Position numbers and translations under genes: made by a program. From NCBI GenBank assembly GCA_030018495.1, contig JASEFS010000015.1, forward strand, positions 1-53,374: a stretch of 53,374 bases of DNA. Reading direction: 5' to 3'. The DNA is from Deltaproteobacteria bacterium. Lineage in GTDB: Bacteria; Desulfobacterota; Desulfobaccia; Desulfobaccales; 0-14-0-80-60-11. Within the stretch, counting starts at the first letter, position 1. Each line of letters opens with the position of its first letter. Shown piece by piece: positions 45,380 to 53,256 of the stretch. A model generated the notes under the pieces. The model was not told the DNA's origin, made no database searches, and saw only the letters and a program-made list of their open reading frames with translations.

Positions 45380-46729
45380 TTAATTGACGAAATAAATCCG
45401 GCAGGCTCGGTCAAGATTTTCCTTGGTGAGGCTCGGGGGAAGTTGATGGAAATTGCAATAGTCCAGGATTTGCTCCAGCAGGTCCCGGGGATGGCAGGCA
45501 TCCATGGAGCGCTCGCCGTTGTAATGCTTGTCCAGGAGATATTGCACGGTGTCGTGATCAAACTCCAGCTGGTAGTGATGGCACATAAGGCGGAAAATTT
45601 CGATGAACTGCTCCCGGCTGACGTGGCCGATCTTGACCTTGGAGCGGATGCGGCGCAAAAAGGCGTCGTCCACCAGGGTGCGGGGTTCCAGGTTGGTGGC
45701 GAAAACCAGAAACTGGTCAAAGGGGATGGCGAATTTCTGGCCGGTGTGGAGGCAGAGGAAATCCTGACGGTTCTCCAGGGGGATGATCCAGCGGTTCAGG
45801 AGTTCCTGGGGGGAAATCTGCTGGCGGCCGAAGTCGTCCACAATGAAAAGACCGTTGTTGGCCTTGAGCTGCAACGGGGCTTCGTAATATTTCAAGGAAG
45901 GGTTGTAAGACAAGTCCAGCATGCCCAGAGTCAATTCCCCGCCGACGATGACCGTGGGGCGGCGGCAGCGCACCCAGCGGCGGTCGCCGGCCTCGGTTAT
46001 GCCTTCGCCGCCGTGGGGCTGGTGGCTGATTTCATCAAACACCCTAAGGACATTGCCTTCCACATACAGGGCATAAGGCACCAGAATGGCGTCGTCCCAG
46101 ATCTCGCCCAGCCGCAAAGCGATGGTGGTTTTGCCGTTGCCGGGGGGGCCGTAGAGGAAGAGGGGTTTGCCGCTTACCGCGGCCGGGCCGAGCTGCTCCA
46201 CCAAATCCGGGCCCAGCACCAGACCATGAAAGGCCTGCCGCAGGCGAGTCGGCGTCACCCGGGTCAGACGGATGCTCTGCCGGCTGACCTGCTCCCAGTA
46301 ATCATCCAAACTCACCGGCGCCGGACCAACGTACGCGTCATATTCCAGGAGATTGGCGGCCCGGCGTTTGCCGCTTTCGGTGAGCGCGAAGCGGTTGGTG
46401 AGACTTAAAGGGTTGGCCGCAGGCTTCAGGGCATCAGGCCCCCGGACCTCGACGTAGCGCTCTTTTCTTAAATAATCCAATAGCTGATTGAGGATGGTGG
46501 TGGAGAGCTTGATGCGTTCGCCCAGCTCCGACAAATAGAAGACATCCAAGTAGAAGCAATGCTTGAGGGTCAGGTTGGCCAGAAAGATTTCCGGCAACCC
46601 CAATTCCTGAAGCGACTGGGGCAAGGCGCGTTCGGGACCCGCGGCCGCTGATTTTTCCCCAGCTTTGGATGCGTATTCCAGCATGGCGGCAAATCTCCGT
46701 ACTTGGTCTTCTTCCGGGGGACTAAACAC
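45380..46729 (-). CDS. AAA ATPase with N-terminal winged-helix-like region
   Basis: 449 residues from GTG 46729; ATG 46684 (GGAG upstream) is an alternative. Residues about 55-130 look like a winged helix (STTILNQLLDYLRKERYVEV, NRFALTESGKRRA). The AAA core has Walker A LYGPPGNGKTT, Walker B LFIVDDFGRQ, sensor-1-like FLVFATNLEP and FLRRIRSKV, which may supply arginine fingers. It is divergent from the Tad pilus operon and shares its long upstream region, suggesting a role in its regulation or assembly. No substrate is known. Confidence 0.75.
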   Translation of the reverse strand: MFSPPEEDQVRRFAAMLEYASKAGEKSAAAGPERALPQSLQELGLPEIFLANLTLKHCFYLDVFYLSELGERIKLSTTILNQLLDYLRKERYVEVRGPDALKPAANPLSLTNRFALTESGKRRAANLLEYDAYVGPAPVSLDDYWEQVSRQSIRLTRVTPTRLRQAFHGLVLGPDLVEQLGPAAVSGKPLFLYGPPGNGKTTIALRLGEIWDDAILVPYALYVEGNVLRVFDEISHQPHGGEGITEAGDRRWVRCRRPTVIVGGELTLGMLDLSYNPSLKYYEAPLQLKANNGLFIVDDFGRQQISPQELLNRWIIPLENRQDFLCLHTGQKFAIPFDQFLVFATNLEPRTLVDDAFLRRIRSKVKIGHVSREQFIEIFRLMCHHYQLEFDHDTVQYLLDKHYNGERSMDACHPRDLLEQILDYCNFHQLPPSLTKENLDRACRIYFVN

Positions 46730-46842
46730 GGATCGGGTGATGCGGCTTAAAACTTTAAGGTGATTTTGGCTGTCGCCATCAGCAGCGGGGCAAATTTAAA
46801 GTCGCCTGCACAAGTGCCGATAAAGGGAGTGTAAGGAAATTT
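46730..46842. other. Divergent upstream region of the AAA ATPase and Tad operon
   Basis: Should contain the promoters for both directions and the start of the riboswitch leader. I found no confident -35/-10 pair. Confidence 0.4.
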
Positions 46843-46938
46843 GTCCACCGAGAACGGCGAACTAATCCGAAAGGGTAGGGCGCAAAATCACCGGCCTAAG
46901 GCCTGCCCGGCTACGGCGGCGGGATTGCCGAAGTGGAC
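46843..46938 (+). promoter_or_regulatory. GEMM-I (cyclic di-GMP-I class) riboswitch aptamer
   Basis: P1 is formed by GTCCAC (46843-46848) and GTGGAC (46933-46938). Inside are the family hallmarks in order: AACGGCGAACT, hairpin with GNRA loop (ATCCGAAAGGGT), the conserved GGCGCAAAATCACCGGCCTA with its tetraloop receptor, and the second arm CCCGGCTACGGCGGCGGGAT ending TTGCCG. By alignment from memory to the Vibrio Vc2 aptamer, the base equivalent to G20 is G, which favours c-di-GMP over cyclic GMP-AMP. It lies 181 bases before the flp gene on the same strand. Confidence 0.88.
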
Positions 46939-47119
46939 GCCAAGAAAAGACAACCCAGACCGCGATTAAGGGGAAGCCTTTGGTGAACTCGGTGGACCGT
47001 CGGGGAAGCCCCGGAACGGCTAAGCTGGCGCGAAGGAGGTGAAAAGGCGAGAGCTGGACCCGTTCGGGAATTAGGCAGCTTCCTGCCGCAACATCAACCA
47101 ACCCAAGAGGAGTGGAGAC
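46939..47119 (+). promoter_or_regulatory. Leader between riboswitch and flp, expression platform not resolved
   Basis: 181 bases with high folding potential (for example CGGGG-AAG-CCCCG near 47000 and GGCAG-CTTC-CTGCC at 47074-47087) but no T-run that would mark an intrinsic terminator. The flp ribosome site AGAGGAG is at its end. Control may act on translation, Rho or RNA stability, or a second RNA element may be present. Confidence 0.5.
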
Positions 47120-47326
47120 ATGAAAGATCTGTTCACCAAGGCAAAAATGTTTTTCCGGGAAGAAGAGGGCGCCAGCGCCGTGGAATACGGCCTGCTGGTG
47201 GCGGGCATCGCGGTGGTGGTCATGGCGTCCATCTATCTCATCGGCACCAACCTGAACACCAAGTTTAGCGATGTCGCCAGCCAACTGAGCAGCGGAGGCG
47301 GCGGAGGCGGCGGCGAAGGCGGCTAA
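47120..47326 (+). CDS. flp: Flp/Fap pilin, Tad pilus major subunit
   Basis: 68 residues. A short charged leader (MKDLFTKAKMFFREEE) is followed by GASAVEYGLLVAGIAVVVMA, the class IVb Flp signature with the conserved Glu-Tyr after the cleavage Gly, and then a short body ending in a Gly-rich tail. It is exported, processed by a prepilin peptidase and polymerised. First gene after the riboswitch leader; AGAGGAGTGGAG precedes the ATG. Only one pilin copy is seen. Confidence 0.92.
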   Translation: MKDLFTKAKMFFREEEGASAVEYGLLVAGIAVVVMASIYLIGTNLNTKFSDVASQLSSGGGGGGGEGG

Positions 47327-47466: not shown

Positions 47467-47883
47467 GTGGCGGGGCTGAAGGTTTTAGGAAATCAAAAAG
47501 GCGTGGCGCTGGTGGAGATGGCCTTGGTGGCGCCCATTTTTGTGGTCGTGCTGTTCGGCCTCCTGGAGTTCGGCTACATCATCTACTCCAAGCAGGTGCT
47601 GGCCAACGCCAGCCGGGAGGGGGCAAGGCTCGGGGTGGTGCTGAGCAATCCGCGCAAAACCCAGGCCGAAATCGAGGAGCAGGTGCAGAAGTATTTGGAA
47701 AAATCCGGGTTCGACCCGACGGAAGTGACGGTGACTTATCCCAGCGGCCTCCCGGGAGCCAGCGGCGACCCTTTTGCGGTGCGATTGGACTACGCGTACA
47801 ACTTCAAGGTCTTGCCCAAATTTATTCAAAGCCTGACCGGTTCCCTGGGGTTGACGGCGGAAGCGGTAATGCTCATGGAGTGA
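47467..47883 (+). CDS. tadE: TadE-like pseudopilin
   Basis: 138 residues, GTG start with AAAGGCGA upstream. The N-terminus (QKGVALVEMALVAPIFVVVL..LLEFG) is the TadE/TadG signature; the remainder is periplasmic. TadE is a minor pseudopilin needed for pilus biogenesis. It lies 140 bases after flp; the next gene begins seven bases after its stop. Confidence 0.9.
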   Translation: MAGLKVLGNQKGVALVEMALVAPIFVVVLFGLLEFGYIIYSKQVLANASREGARLGVVLSNPRKTQAEIEEQVQKYLEKSGFDPTEVTVTYPSGLPGASGDPFAVRLDYAYNFKVLPKFIQSLTGSLGLTAEAVMLME

Positions 47884-47890
47884 GGAAACT

Positions 47891-48745
47891 ATGCGGAGAT
47901 TGCCCCCCTGGTTCTGGTTGGTACTGGCTCTGGTGTTCGGCACCACGGCCACTTTTATGGCGTTGGGCTGGCTTCGGGGCCAGTCTCAAAAACGGACGCA
48001 GGTGACCATTCCGACGAGCCCGATAGTGGTGGCGGCCAAAGACATTGATCCAGCCATGGCCCTGGACCAGGACCAGGTGGTGGTGCGCCATTGGCCTCGG
48101 GAGAACTGCCCGAAAGGGAGCTTTTCCCGGGTGGAGGACGTGGTGGGGCGGGTGACCGCCTACTCCTTCGGGGCCGGCGAACCGGTTTTGGAGACCAAAT
48201 TGGCTCCCAAGGGAGTATCCCCGGGGCTTACCGCGCTGCTCACCCCGGAGAAGCGGGCCATGACGGTGAAGGTTGACGAAGCCTCCGGGGTGGCCGGATT
48301 CCTGAGCCCCGAGAACCGGGTGGACGTGGTGGTGACCATCGACAAGGGAGAATTCAACAAAGACCCGGTTTCCAAGGTGGTCCTCCAGAATTTGCGGGTT
48401 CTGGGCACCGGCCAGCGCATCGAGAAGCGGCCGGGGGATAAACCGCAGGTGGTGCCCACGGTGACCCTGGAGGTGTCGCCGGAGGAAGGCGAACGTCTGG
48501 CCCTGGCGGGTCGGGAAGGGCATATTTCCCTGGCGCTCAGAAACTCCAACAACCAGGACGTTATCCAGACAAGCGGGGTGAAGACCGCCACCCTCATCGA
48601 AGGACTGCCTATGGCCCGGAACTTTAACGGCAACGGCAATCTTCGCACCATTGTAGAAGTAATACGGGGACCATACATCAAAGACCCGAAAAAAAACAAG
48701 GTGGAACCCGATAAAAAGTCCCAGGAGTTTGAGTCCTGCCGCTAG
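47891..48745 (+). CDS. cpaB: Flp pilus assembly protein CpaB (RcpC)
   Basis: 284 residues. A membrane anchor (WFWLVLALVFGTTATFMALGW) is followed by a SAF-type domain (PIVVAAKDIDPAMALDQDQV, GEPVLETKLAPKG) and the CpaB C-terminal domain (MTVKVDEASGVAGFLSPENRVDVVVTI). CpaB is periplasmic and normally stabilises the secretin CpaC. In most clusters cpaC follows directly; here the next gene is tadZ. Confidence 0.92.
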   Translation: MRRLPPWFWLVLALVFGTTATFMALGWLRGQSQKRTQVTIPTSPIVVAAKDIDPAMALDQDQVVVRHWPRENCPKGSFSRVEDVVGRVTAYSFGAGEPVLETKLAPKGVSPGLTALLTPEKRAMTVKVDEASGVAGFLSPENRVDVVVTIDKGEFNKDPVSKVVLQNLRVLGTGQRIEKRPGDKPQVVPTVTLEVSPEEGERLALAGREGHISLALRNSNNQDVIQTSGVKTATLIEGLPMARNFNGNGNLRTIVEVIRGPYIKDPKKNKVEPDKKSQEFESCR

Positions 48746-48807: not shown

Positions 48808-49980
48808 ATGGCCATCAATTTTTCCCTCTATTACCGCACCCCGGAAAACTGCGATTATCTCAAGAAGGTTATCACCTCGTCCCGTCAGGGGAAACTGGTG
48901 GAAGCCAAGCCGTTGGCGGAGCTTCCCGAAATGGTCAACTCCGGGGCCAATGCCGTCTTCCTGGAATACGAAAACGATGATCCGGATTTGGACCAGTGGA
49001 TCAAGAAAACCGCGGCTGACCACCGCAATCCCCCAATCTTTCTCTACCTTCAGGAAATAACCACCGAGCAGCTCTGGAAGGCTTTGCGCCTGGGAGTCAA
49101 GGAGTGCTTTGTTTTTCCCATCCGGCCTGAGGAATTCCAGGAAGCGCTGGACCGGCTGCCGGTTTTTCCCATCGAGCCCGGCGCCGGCGACCCCACCCGG
49201 GTGGTGGCGCTGCTGGGCTGCAAAGGCGGCGTGGGCACTACTTTCATGGCCGTCAACGCCGCGTATCTGCTGGCCCAGGAAGACAAAGGCCAGGTGCTGG
49301 CCGCGGATTTGGATTTGCGCTACGGCCAGATGGTTTATTTCTTCGACGCCAAGCCGCAATACACCATTGTGGAAGTTATTGAAAACGCAGACCATTTGGA
49401 CCATTCCTATTTGCAGAGCCTGTTTTACCAGTATGACAAAAACCTGCAGCTGATGCCTGCGCCTTTGCGTTTGGAAGATGCCGAGATAGTGACGCCGGAG
49501 CAGTTGGAAAAAGTCATAAGCTATTTGAAAAAATTGCGGGCTTTCCGAACTATTGTGATGGACGTCGGGCATCAGGTTGATGAAGTTGCCCTCAAATCCC
49601 TGGAATTGGCTGACGACGTCGTTTTGGTGACGAACCAAATGATCCCGGCCTTGTCCAATGCCAAAAAATTACTGGAGGTCTTGCAGTTGGTGGGTCTGGA
49701 GAATTTAAACCTGCAAATCTGGCTGAATGCCTGGCAAAAGCACGGCGATCTGTCGCTTAATGACGTTGCCGGCTTTTTGGGGCGAGAAGTCGCCGGCGCG
49801 GTGCAGTTTGACCTCAAGGAATCGACCCGCAGCATCAACGAGGGGGTGCCCCTCGCCAAACTGGCTCCCAACCTGGGGGTCTGCCGGGATTTGCAGATTT
49901 TTGCCGCCAGATTGGGGGGAAAAAACGGTCAGGACAAAAAAGCCTCGCGCTGGGGATTGCTAAATCTCTTCAGGAGGTAG
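48808..49980 (+). CDS. tadZ: TadZ/CpaE, MinD-like ATPase of the Tad system
   Basis: 390 residues. The N-terminal 130 residues are receiver-like but atypical; then a deviant Walker A ALLGCKGGVGTTFMAVNAA and MinD/ParA-type motifs (DLDLRYGQMVYFF, VMDVGHQVDEV). TadZ localises the pilus machine, often at a pole. AAGGAG abuts the ATG, leaving little spacing, so initiation may be inefficient. Confidence 0.92.
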   Translation: MAINFSLYYRTPENCDYLKKVITSSRQGKLVEAKPLAELPEMVNSGANAVFLEYENDDPDLDQWIKKTAADHRNPPIFLYLQEITTEQLWKALRLGVKECFVFPIRPEEFQEALDRLPVFPIEPGAGDPTRVVALLGCKGGVGTTFMAVNAAYLLAQEDKGQVLAADLDLRYGQMVYFFDAKPQYTIVEVIENADHLDHSYLQSLFYQYDKNLQLMPAPLRLEDAEIVTPEQLEKVISYLKKLRAFRTIVMDVGHQVDEVALKSLELADDVVLVTNQMIPALSNAKKLLEVLQLVGLENLNLQIWLNAWQKHGDLSLNDVAGFLGREVAGAVQFDLKESTRSINEGVPLAKLAPNLGVCRDLQIFAARLGGKNGQDKKASRWGLLNLFRR

Positions 49981-49987
49981 GGCATAA

Positions 49988-51337
49988 ATGAGCATAATGG
50001 CTCGCATCCGGGAACGCACGGCCGCGGAGCGCAGCGCGCCGGCACCCTCCCGCGCCGCGGATCACAAGAAAGAAAACTCGTTTCATGAATTAAAGGTCAA
50101 AATTCACTTCCGTCTTCTCAACCTGCTGGATCTCACCCGGCTGGCCGAAGCCGAGGAGAGCGTCCTCCAGGAAGACCTGCGTCGGGGCATCGAGATCATC
50201 CTGGCGGAGGAGAATTTGGCCCTGACCTTGCCGGAGCGGGAGCGGCTGTGCAAGGAGATCCGCGATGAAATCCTGGGGTACGGTCCGCTGGAGCCTTTGC
50301 TTCATGACCACGACATCGGCGACATCCTGGTCAACTGCTTTGACCAGGTTTACGTGGAGCGCCGGGGCAAGCTGGAGCGGAGTCCCATAAGATTCACGGA
50401 CAACTCCCATCTGCTGAAAATCATAGAAAAAATCGCCACCGGGGTGGGCCGCCGGGTGGATGAGTCCTGTCCCATGGTGGACGCCCGGCTGCCTGACGGC
50501 TCCCGGGTCAACGCCATTATTCCACCCCTGGCCCTGGACGGGCCCAGCCTGTCCATCCGCAAATTCGCCAAGGACCCCATCAGGGTAAACCATCTGGTGG
50601 AATTCGGCTCCATCACCCCGGAAATCGCCCAGGTCATGGAAGCCATAGTCCAGGCCCGCCTCAACATCCTCATCTCCGGCGGCACGGGCACCGGCAAGAC
50701 CACCTTTTTAAATGTTTTGTCCAGCTTCATCCCTAACGATGAGCGCATCATCACCATCGAGGATTCGGCGGAATTGCAGTTGCAGCAGGAGCACATCGTG
50801 CGTCTGGAGACCCGGCCCCCCAACCTGGAGGGCATGGGGGAGATCACCCAGCGGGACCTGGTGCGCAACGCCCTGCGCATGCGGCCGGACCGCGTCATCC
50901 TGGGGGAAGTGCGGCAGGGCGAGGCTCTGGACATGCTCCAGGCCATGAACACCGGGCATGACGGGTCGCTTGCCACCATTCACGCCAACTCCCCCAGGGA
51001 CGCCTTGACCCGCCTGGAAACCATGGTCTCCATGGCCGGCCTGAACATCCCGGACAAGGCCATCCGCCACCAAATCGCTTCGGCCATTGATGTGGTCATT
51101 CAGCTGGCCCGCTTGAGCGACGGCAGCCGCAAGTGCATGGGAATCCATGAAATTGTGGGCATGGAAGGCGACATGATCACCATGCAGGAGATCTTCGCCT
51201 ACAAGATGATGGGGCTGACGGACGACCGCAAGGTCAGGGGCAAGTTCATCACCACCGGCATCCGGCCCAAGTTCATGGCCCGCCTGGAAGCCATGGGCAT
51301 CAACCTGCCGGCCAACGTGTTTAGGGAAAGTCTTTAA
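49988..51337 (+). CDS. tadA: TadA/CpaF, secretion ATPase
   Basis: 449 residues. Motifs: [16 protein letters not shown] (Walker A), [31 protein letters not shown] split over the Asp box and Walker B, and [17 protein letters not shown] (His box), as in type II/IV secretion ATPases of the CpaF branch. It powers pilus assembly. AGGAGG is upstream and the start is seven bases after the tadZ stop. Confidence 0.95.
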
Positions 51338-51342
51338 AAGCT

Positions 51343-52335
51343 ATGGATAGGCTGCTGGCTTTAACCCAGGGAATTCCCAATCTGCTGATCATCTTTACTT
51401 TTCTTTTCTTTCTGTGCCTGGTGGAAGGGATCTTCCTGGTGTTCTGCAATGCCGACCGGCAGCATAAGAAAAGATTGCAAAAACGCCTTAAGTATTTGGA
51501 AGGACTGGAGAAACGGCTTACGCAGGAGTCCCTTCTCAAGGCCGAAGTTTTCGGCAGCCAGCCCTGGCTGCGCCAGGCCTTGAAAAAAATTCGCCGCCTG
51601 GAGCAGATTCAGACCTTGCTCTTGCAAGCGGACGTGAACCTGCCCCTGGGGATGATGCTCCTCTTGTGGCTCCTGTCCGGCGCCGTGGGATTGAGTCTGG
51701 GTTTCTTTCGCTTCGGCCCTCCCGGCGGATTGCTGGGTTTCCTCCTGGGAATGTTTTTGCCTTATAAAATTCTGAAAATGAAAAAGAAGCATCGCAACAA
51801 GAAATTTGAGAAGCAATTGCCCGAGGCCCTGGATCTGTTGGCCCGGGGTCTGAAAGCGGGTCATGCTTTTGCCGCGGGCTTGCAGATGGTGGGTGAGGAG
51901 ATGCCCAACCCCATAGGCCTGGAGTTTTTCAAGACCTTCAAGGAATACAACCACGGCATGGATATGAGCACCGCGCTCCTGAATCTCTGCCACCGCATGG
52001 ACCTGAAAGAACTCAGATTCTTTACCACTGCGGTGCTGATACAAAGGGAAACCGGCGGCAACCTCACGGAAATTCTGGAGAAGATCGCCGGTCTTATCCG
52101 GGAGCGCTTTAAGCTGCGCAATCAGATCAAAGCCCTTACCGCAGAAGGGCGGCTGTCAGGCTGGATCCTCATCCTGATGCCGCCCGCCCTGTTCCTGGTG
52201 ATGCTGAGACTCAACCCCGAATATACGCTGATGCTGGTGAACCACAAAACCGGGCGCATGATGGCCATGACCGCCATGTTCTTCCAGATGCTGGGCATGC
52301 TCACCATCCGCAAGATCGTCAATATCAAGGTCTAA
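51343..52335 (+). CDS. tadB: TadB, inner-membrane platform protein
   Basis: 330 residues. A T2SSF domain with membrane segments near the start, middle and end (LLLWLLSGAVGLSLGFF; LSGWILILMPPALFLVML) and the motif LPEALDLLARGLKAGHAF. It forms, with TadC, the platform at the base of the Tad pilus. Six bases after tadA. Confidence 0.93.
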   Translation: MDRLLALTQGIPNLLIIFTFLFFLCLVEGIFLVFCNADRQHKKRLQKRLKYLEGLEKRLTQESLLKAEVFGSQPWLRQALKKIRRLEQIQTLLLQADVNLPLGMMLLLWLLSGAVGLSLGFFRFGPPGGLLGFLLGMFLPYKILKMKKKHRNKKFEKQLPEALDLLARGLKAGHAFAAGLQMVGEEMPNPIGLEFFKTFKEYNHGMDMSTALLNLCHRMDLKELRFFTTAVLIQRETGGNLTEILEKIAGLIRERFKLRNQIKALTAEGRLSGWILILMPPALFLVMLRLNPEYTLMLVNHKTGRMMAMTAMFFQMLGMLTIRKIVNIKV

Positions 52336-52344
52336 GGATCAGCC

Positions 52345-53256
52345 ATGGTTTTTTATGCCCTGCTTTTCGGTCTGTCGGCCACCAGCGTTATAATTTTCCT
52401 GGGCCTGCTCTATCAGAAATACAGTTCCCGGGCGCGGCGGCGCCTCAAGACCGAAAGCAAGCCGGAAATCGTTTTGACCCAGAAAGAAAAGCCCAAGGAA
52501 TACCTGCCTTCTGCGCTGGTGGAGAAGTGCGAGGAAAAGCTGGGCATCCACAGAAGCGGCACCAAGGTCAAGGAACTGAAAAAGACGCTGGTTCAGGCCG
52601 GCATCTACAGCGACCGGGCGGTGTCCATGTTTTTCGGGGCCAAGCTGGGCTTGGCCCTGGGGCTGCCCATCCTGTCCATGCCGCTGATACTCGGCAAAGT
52701 TCTGCCGGGCGCCCTGAAGGCCCCGGTTATTATGGGGCTCCTGGCGGTGGGATATTTTTTCCCCACCTTCATCCTGAATCGCCTGGTTGAGGCGCGCCAA
52801 AAGAAAATTACCGAGGGGCTGCCGGACGCCCTGGACCTTCTGGTGGTCTGTGTCGAAGCCGGCCAGGGACTCAACGCCGCGTTGAAAAGGGTGGCGGAGG
52901 ACCTGAAACTGTCCAACCCGGCCCTGTCCAAAGAGCTGGGCCTGGTTAACCTGGAGATCAACGCCGGCCTGGAGCGGGAGACCGCCCTGCGCAATCTGGC
53001 GGAGCGGACCGGGGTTGAAGATGTCTCTTCTCTGTGCTCCATGCTGATCCAAAGCGACCGTTTCGGCACCAGCATGGCCCAAGCTTTGAAGGTTCAATCC
53101 GAAATGCTGCGCACCACCCGGCGGCAGCGGCTGGAAGAACTGGCCGCCAAAACCCCCGTGAAGCTGGTCTTCCCCTTGCTCCTGTTCATTTTCCCGGCAC
53201 TGATGGTGGTCATCATCGGCCCCGCGGCCATCCGCATTATGGAAAACCTGAAATAA
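52345..53256 (+). CDS. tadC: TadC, inner-membrane platform protein
   Basis: 303 residues. T2SSF domain with GLPDALDLLVVCVEAGQGLNAAL and the C-terminal KTPVKLVFPLLLFIFPALMVVII, typical of TadC. It closes the visible Tad operon; repeats follow directly. Confidence 0.93.
   Translation: MVFYALLFGLSATSVIIFLGLLYQKYSSRARRRLKTESKPEIVLTQKEKPKEYLPSALVEKCEEKLGIHRSGTKVKELKKTLVQAGIYSDRAVSMFFGAKLGLALGLPILSMPLILGKVLPGALKAPVIMGLLAVGYFFPTFILNRLVEARQKKITEGLPDALDLLVVCVEAGQGLNAALKRVAEDLKLSNPALSKELGLVNLEINAGLERETALRNLAERTGVEDVSSLCSMLIQSDRFGTSMAQALKVQSEMLRTTRRQRLEELAAKTPVKLVFPLLLFIFPALMVVIIGPAAIRIMENLK

Follow-up and report, generated by a model that had tools for sequence, protein, structure and literature searches.

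What might an RNA that senses a second messenger be doing at the head of an operon for Tad pili, which are major organelles of surface attachment? We came to this question through the first 53,374 nucleotides of a contig from a member of the Desulfobaccales (Deltaproteobacteria bacterium, JASEFS010000015.1), which were analysed as a whole and are called the window here. A sequence-only reading had proposed that a GEMM-I aptamer with a six-pair P1, a GNRA cap, the typical core and a TTGCCG end controls an entire Tad operon, and that it links sessile growth to the messenger. The first part of this proposal holds, the second would hold at most indirectly and the third probably not.

When the whole window was scanned against Rfam with cmscan at gathering thresholds, only one match was returned. 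This was RF01051 (c-di-GMP-I) at 46846-46932 on the plus strand, with 64.8 bits (gathering threshold 35) and E 1.8e-10, spanning model positions 1-87 of 87, not truncated. A permissive Rfam scan of the leader again gave this aptamer as the sole riboswitch match (E 2.3e-12). RF01786 (c-di-GMP-II), the other model that had been suggested for an Infernal search, had no match in either scan. The sequence is as it had been described: P1 consists of six pairs between GUCCAC (46843-46848) and GUGGAC (46933-46938), and a GAAA-capped hairpin, the GGCGCAAAA..GGCCUA core and the TTGCCG 3' end are all present. In the RF01051 alignment model position 11 is a G. We take this position to correspond to G20 of Vc2, which contacts G-alpha and parts c-di-GMP from cGAMP types, so that c-di-GMP, not cGAMP, is the expected ligand. 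GEMM-Ib, the 3',3'-cGAMP riboswitch of Geobacter, has the same fold and Rfam family, but carries A where the window RNA carries G. The element is a c-di-GMP-I (GEMM-I) riboswitch aptamer of the known family, of the GGC class, with c-di-GMP as its predicted ligand. Its folding energy is unremarkable (z -1.14) and alone would not pick it out, nor is the fold of the whole leader exceptionally stable (z -0.82); what identifies it is the covariance model, together with its conservation among relatives.

The aptamer shares its strand with flp, whose ATG lies 187 nt downstream, and the genes that follow are those that had been named, all co-directional on the plus strand and confirmed by Pfam. They are flp itself (47120-47326; Flp/Fap pilin, Flp_Fap, PF04964, E 4e-14) with its Shine-Dalgarno GAGGAG (47107-47112), tadE (47467-47883; PF07811), cpaB/rcpC (47891-48745; PF16976, PF08666), tadZ (48808-49980; PF13614), tadA (49988-51337; T2SSE, PF00437), tadB (51343-52335) and tadC (52345-53256), the last two T2SSF proteins (PF00482). 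The tadZ assignment rests on a generic AAA_31 ATPase match and on position. No secretin (CpaC/RcpA) was seen in the cpaB-tadZ interval. Past the window end, at about 53717-57916 of the same contig (G000 contig C10; L093:7718-11916), genes for MotB, MotA and CheZ adjoin tadC and are convergent to the Tad operon. On the other side, divergent from the Tad leader, 45380-46729 (minus strand) encodes a 449-aa protein with a P-loop-like GPPGNGKTT motif and no Pfam match.

Where does the transcript start? At 46797-46823 (plus strand) there is a sigma-28 (FliA)-type promoter, TAAA(GT)-N15-GCCGATAA, which agrees exactly with the expected TAAA -35 and GCCGATAA -10 about 15-16 nt apart. It is the sole exact match in the window, where 0.02 would be expected. 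The whole genome has 7 exact motifs versus 0 in a reversed control; besides the one at the Tad leader, those with clear targets precede a flagellin gene and a TadE gene. A fliA gene is also present. A sigma-70 promoter was sought for the window leader and none was found.

The arrangement is not peculiar to this genome, which has two c-di-GMP-I aptamers and two GGDEF domains. Across 22 genomes of this family of uncultured bacteria there are 81 c-di-GMP-I matches, in 21 of them. A comparison of related tad leaders had been suggested too; intersecting the RF01051 matches with Flp pilin genes yields 19 flp-linked aptamers in 18 of the 22 genomes and in seven genera, with 147-200 nt between aptamer and flp start. 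Each of the 19 is preceded by a GCCGATAA-type -10 (at least 7/8 matching) with a TAAA-type -35 (at least 3/4 matching) 14-16 nt upstream, and in each, 18-23 nt separate the end of the element from the aptamer. Depending on the base that follows the ligand-selecting G, the family's aptamers are of two classes, 39 of the GG class and 42 others. Of the 39, 26 satisfy a strict sigma-28 test, as against none of the 42 (Fisher p 7e-12), while a TTGAC element precedes 31 of the 42. The latter (found, for example, in G002 and G003) are a separate class, AAGCCAAAC..CGGAAAG, with a GEMM-Ib-like core but G at the ligand position; with their TTGAC-type promoters they often stand before genes for secreted proteins that, judged by eye, resemble PEP-CTERM proteins. 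Two genomes of a second Desulfobaccales family carry the unit of promoter and aptamer ahead of an operon that begins with a TadE gene, flp lying about 1.7 kb further downstream. In a sister species (G005, leader L112) the flp leader keeps the sigma-28 promoter and the orphan Shine-Dalgarno described below but has no aptamer match. A degenerate aptamer was ruled out there, as RF01051 does not match even at E 10, and this leader looks like a natural case of riboswitch loss.

FliA scores above cut-off in 20 of the 22 family genomes. Flagellin and FliG are both absent from the same four genera, two of which retain the sigma-28/aptamer/flp unit; the genomes with fliA but neither flagellin nor FliG are G001-G004, G010, G011, G019 and G020. 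In G002, fliA adjoins an flhG-like gene (L262). In the two genera that retain the unit, FliA appears to serve other genes.

If the aptamer does regulate, its P1 should compete with some other structure. The P1 5' strand (strand A) indeed has two possible partners, the P1 3' strand (6 bp) or, extended to 46852 as GUCCACCGAG, a segment B2 at 46988-46997, CUCGGUGGAC, with which it forms a perfect helix of 10 bp. None of 200 shuffles matched this A:B2 helix in the window leader. Over the 19 leaders its score is 391, against a mean of 295 and a maximum of 326 in 200 shuffles, and compensatory forms are found across the family (GTCCACCGAG/CTCGGTGGAC, TCCACGCC/GGCGTGGA, CATCG/CGATG). P1 thus competes with an alternative pairing that is conserved with covariation, and the window leader has the highest-scoring alternative helix of all 19. 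The adjoining segment B1, CUUUGGUGAAC (46978-46988), can form 11 bp, one of them G-U, with flp codons 4-8 (47131-47141; segment C; p=0.005). The family score for B1:C is 373, above all 200 shuffles (mean 279, maximum 314), and a change of GAGC to GAAC in the leader accompanies a change of the flp codon CTC to TTC; counting against this evidence, the partner of B1 sits in conserved pilin codons. In two other lineages the B1 segment pairs beside the flp Shine-Dalgarno instead. Neither of these pairings, nor the sigma-28 promoter, had been part of the sequence-only reading.

Constrained folding of the window leader gives two near-isoenergetic states (-115.9 vs -117.6 kcal/mol). The energy needed to open the flp start is 17.5 kcal/mol in the P1 state versus 9.8 in the alternative one. 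The direction is the same in 13 of the 19 leaders (Wilcoxon p 0.04), which are related sequences, so that such tests overstate independence. The remaining six, including most of those from the two flagella-less genera, do not fold in this direction. No intrinsic terminator lies 3' of the aptamer on the plus strand of the window leader, which rules it out as the expression platform.

The second c-di-GMP-I aptamer of the same genome (L092, contig C23, 88032-88114) follows a sigma-28-like promoter and precedes a gene for a protein without a Pfam match. Its ribosome-binding site lies within a hairpin, a potential competitor of the 3' strand of the aptamer. There CGGCAGCCC would pair either with that strand or with the ribosome-binding-site strand GGGCTGCCG, and the element can be read as occluding the site when ligand is bound.

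The conserved pairings, the closure of the flp start in the P1 state, the lack of a terminator and the similar reading of the second aptamer favor a translational OFF switch. In the absence of c-di-GMP, the P1 5' strand (46843-46852) would pair with B2 (46988-46997); this would tie up the B1-B2 segment, and the flp start would stay open. Upon binding of c-di-GMP, P1 would close (46843-46848 with 46933-46938) and free the B segment, whereupon B1 would pair with flp codons 4-8 and block initiation of translation. Combined with the predicted FliA promoter, this would restrict pili to times of low c-di-GMP and an active FliA programme. We consider such a switch on a sigma-28-transcribed Tad leader the best-supported mechanism, and our confidence in promoter and switch taken together is moderate. 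If correct, the proposed link between c-di-GMP and sessile growth is probably inverted, because the promoter belongs to a flagellar sigma factor and the modelling favors c-di-GMP as an OFF signal. The aptamer does precede the tad cluster; in the absence of an intrinsic terminator and with a platform that would act on flp translation, effects on tadE-tadC would be indirect, via polarity or mRNA decay. The main weakness of the OFF model is that its long-range pairings cross. A:B2 and B1:C share a single nucleotide (46988), and the folding was nested, with pseudoknots outside its reach. The two helices could therefore coexist as a joint pseudoknot, in which case there would be no switch by this route.

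Several other suggestions can be made regarding what the aptamer does. If it were an ON switch, c-di-GMP would open flp expression on a poised FliA-made transcript and pili would appear on surface contact; the freed B segment might, for instance, block an inhibitory structure further downstream, or ribosomes might be recruited via an orphan Shine-Dalgarno. The latter, a perfect Shine-Dalgarno sequence, AAGGAGGTGA (47033-47042, plus strand), has no start codon at normal spacing. Its core GGAGGTG is kept 78-113 nt upstream of flp in 17 of the 19 leaders, and the OFF model leaves it unexplained; it may be a ribosome standby site. A leader peptide after it was ruled out by eye for want of that start codon. 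A second structured RNA was likewise ruled out, as the 187 nt before flp gave no Rfam match up to E 10, and so was a phage origin of the leader (no match). c-di-GMP usually promotes adhesion, and the six leaders that do not fold in the OFF direction would likewise suit an ON switch. Against it, the flp start of the window leader is 7.7 kcal/mol harder to open in the P1 state, complementarity of B1 to the region of the flp start recurs in several lineages, and the second aptamer too is readable as occluding when bound. We regard an ON switch as possible but unlikely.

Another potential role would be at the level of transcription, with the ligand governing Rho-dependent or other factor-dependent termination and hence the whole operon. 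The length of the leader (187 nt beyond the aptamer) and its strong hairpin around 46997-47019 would suit this, as would the related family f2, where a hairpin with a T-rich tail comes after an aptamer that precedes a TadE-led operon. The plus strand, however, has no intrinsic terminator, and the conserved pairing downstream involves the region of the flp start, which makes us doubt this role. That the aptamer is decaying or non-responsive, as an unusual G at model position 14 (GGCGAAC; in only two of the 39 GG-class family aptamers, both in the window genome) and its loss in the sister species might suggest, seems very improbable for a full-length match with an intact core and the best alternative helix of all 19 leaders, the more so as that G would face C at position 35 and could pair with it.

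Returning to the translational OFF switch and its promoter, one may ask how far the combination extends. A DNA pattern joining the sigma-28 -10 to a GG-class aptamer occurs at least 118 times in the species genomes of GTDB. Among the matches listed, exact TAAA at the right spacing occurs in 43 of the 79 loci with enough upstream sequence, compared to a local background of 1.7%. These matches come from Desulfobacterota, Armatimonadota, Atribacterota, Actinomycetota, Betaproteobacteria, Nitrospirota and Bacillota, and among the genes downstream of them are those for type IV pilins, the anti-sigma-28 factor FlgM, ParA-type ATPases, flagellar rod/hook proteins and DUF1631. In 10 of 80 sigma-28-GEMM loci listed flp lies downstream, nine of them in members of the Desulfobaccales family. 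As a target, flp is essentially confined to the family studied, among the matches listed. Outside the order, a single Nitrospinota locus among them (L168) was considered for a GEMM-flp linkage and rejected, with flp about 700 nt off and no good -35. In three Armatimonadota loci (L141, L163, L216) a sigma-28 promoter and c-di-GMP-I aptamer precede flgM, where feedback of c-di-GMP on FliA itself would be possible.

It is well known that c-di-GMP-I riboswitches can precede genes for motility and adhesion. With Vc2 of Vibrio cholerae and Cd1 of Clostridioides difficile (RF01051) the window element shares aptamer sequence and structure, the ligand-selecting G, a position in the 5' leader and the motility/adhesion theme. 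It differs from the known cases in its target, a Tad operon, in its sigma-28-type promoter and in a proposed platform that would sequester early flp codons, where the known comparison is terminator formation. In C. difficile, every functional class I switch is an OFF switch (PMC6366702). In Bdellovibrio, FliA control of the TAD operon has been experimentally shown (PMC5430801), so there too a Tad/flp operon is under a flagellar sigma factor; that paper does not contain the word riboswitch, and in the Desulfobaccales family fliA also persists in flagella-less genera. The Bdellovibrio merRNA (PMC3627812) is likewise a c-di-GMP riboswitch within a FliA-dominated attack-phase regulon. Unlike the window aptamer, which heads the Tad operon, it is an abundant RNA that stands alone, without a gene downstream, and it is not marked there as FliA-promoted. 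Neither a c-di-GMP riboswitch with a Tad operon nor a general sigma-28/GEMM pairing was found in the literature searched, which covered mainly open-access papers; the original GEMM gene list of Weinberg 2007, outside it, may already mention Flp genes. Judged by that literature, a FliA promoter joined to a c-di-GMP-I riboswitch and a Tad operon is new, as is the proposed platform; the aptamer itself is known.

We think it about evenly balanced whether a dual FliA/c-di-GMP-I lock on Tad pili is ancestral in the Desulfobaccales and survives the loss of flagella, with FliA turned into a pilus/adhesion sigma factor, as one case of a FliA-promoter/GEMM-I pairing that spans several phyla and includes the FlgM gene. 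That pairing, together with the retention of fliA and of these pilus promoters in organisms without flagella, suggests a general regulatory module, and the flagella-less genera themselves suggest a concrete case of repurposing of a flagellar sigma factor. If the proposed control of the Tad operon is right, a single leader combines the inputs of motility sigma factor and second messenger, and the swim-to-stick decision becomes testable on one RNA. Pilus production in these bacteria appears to be gated by both the swimming programme and the 'settle down' signal.
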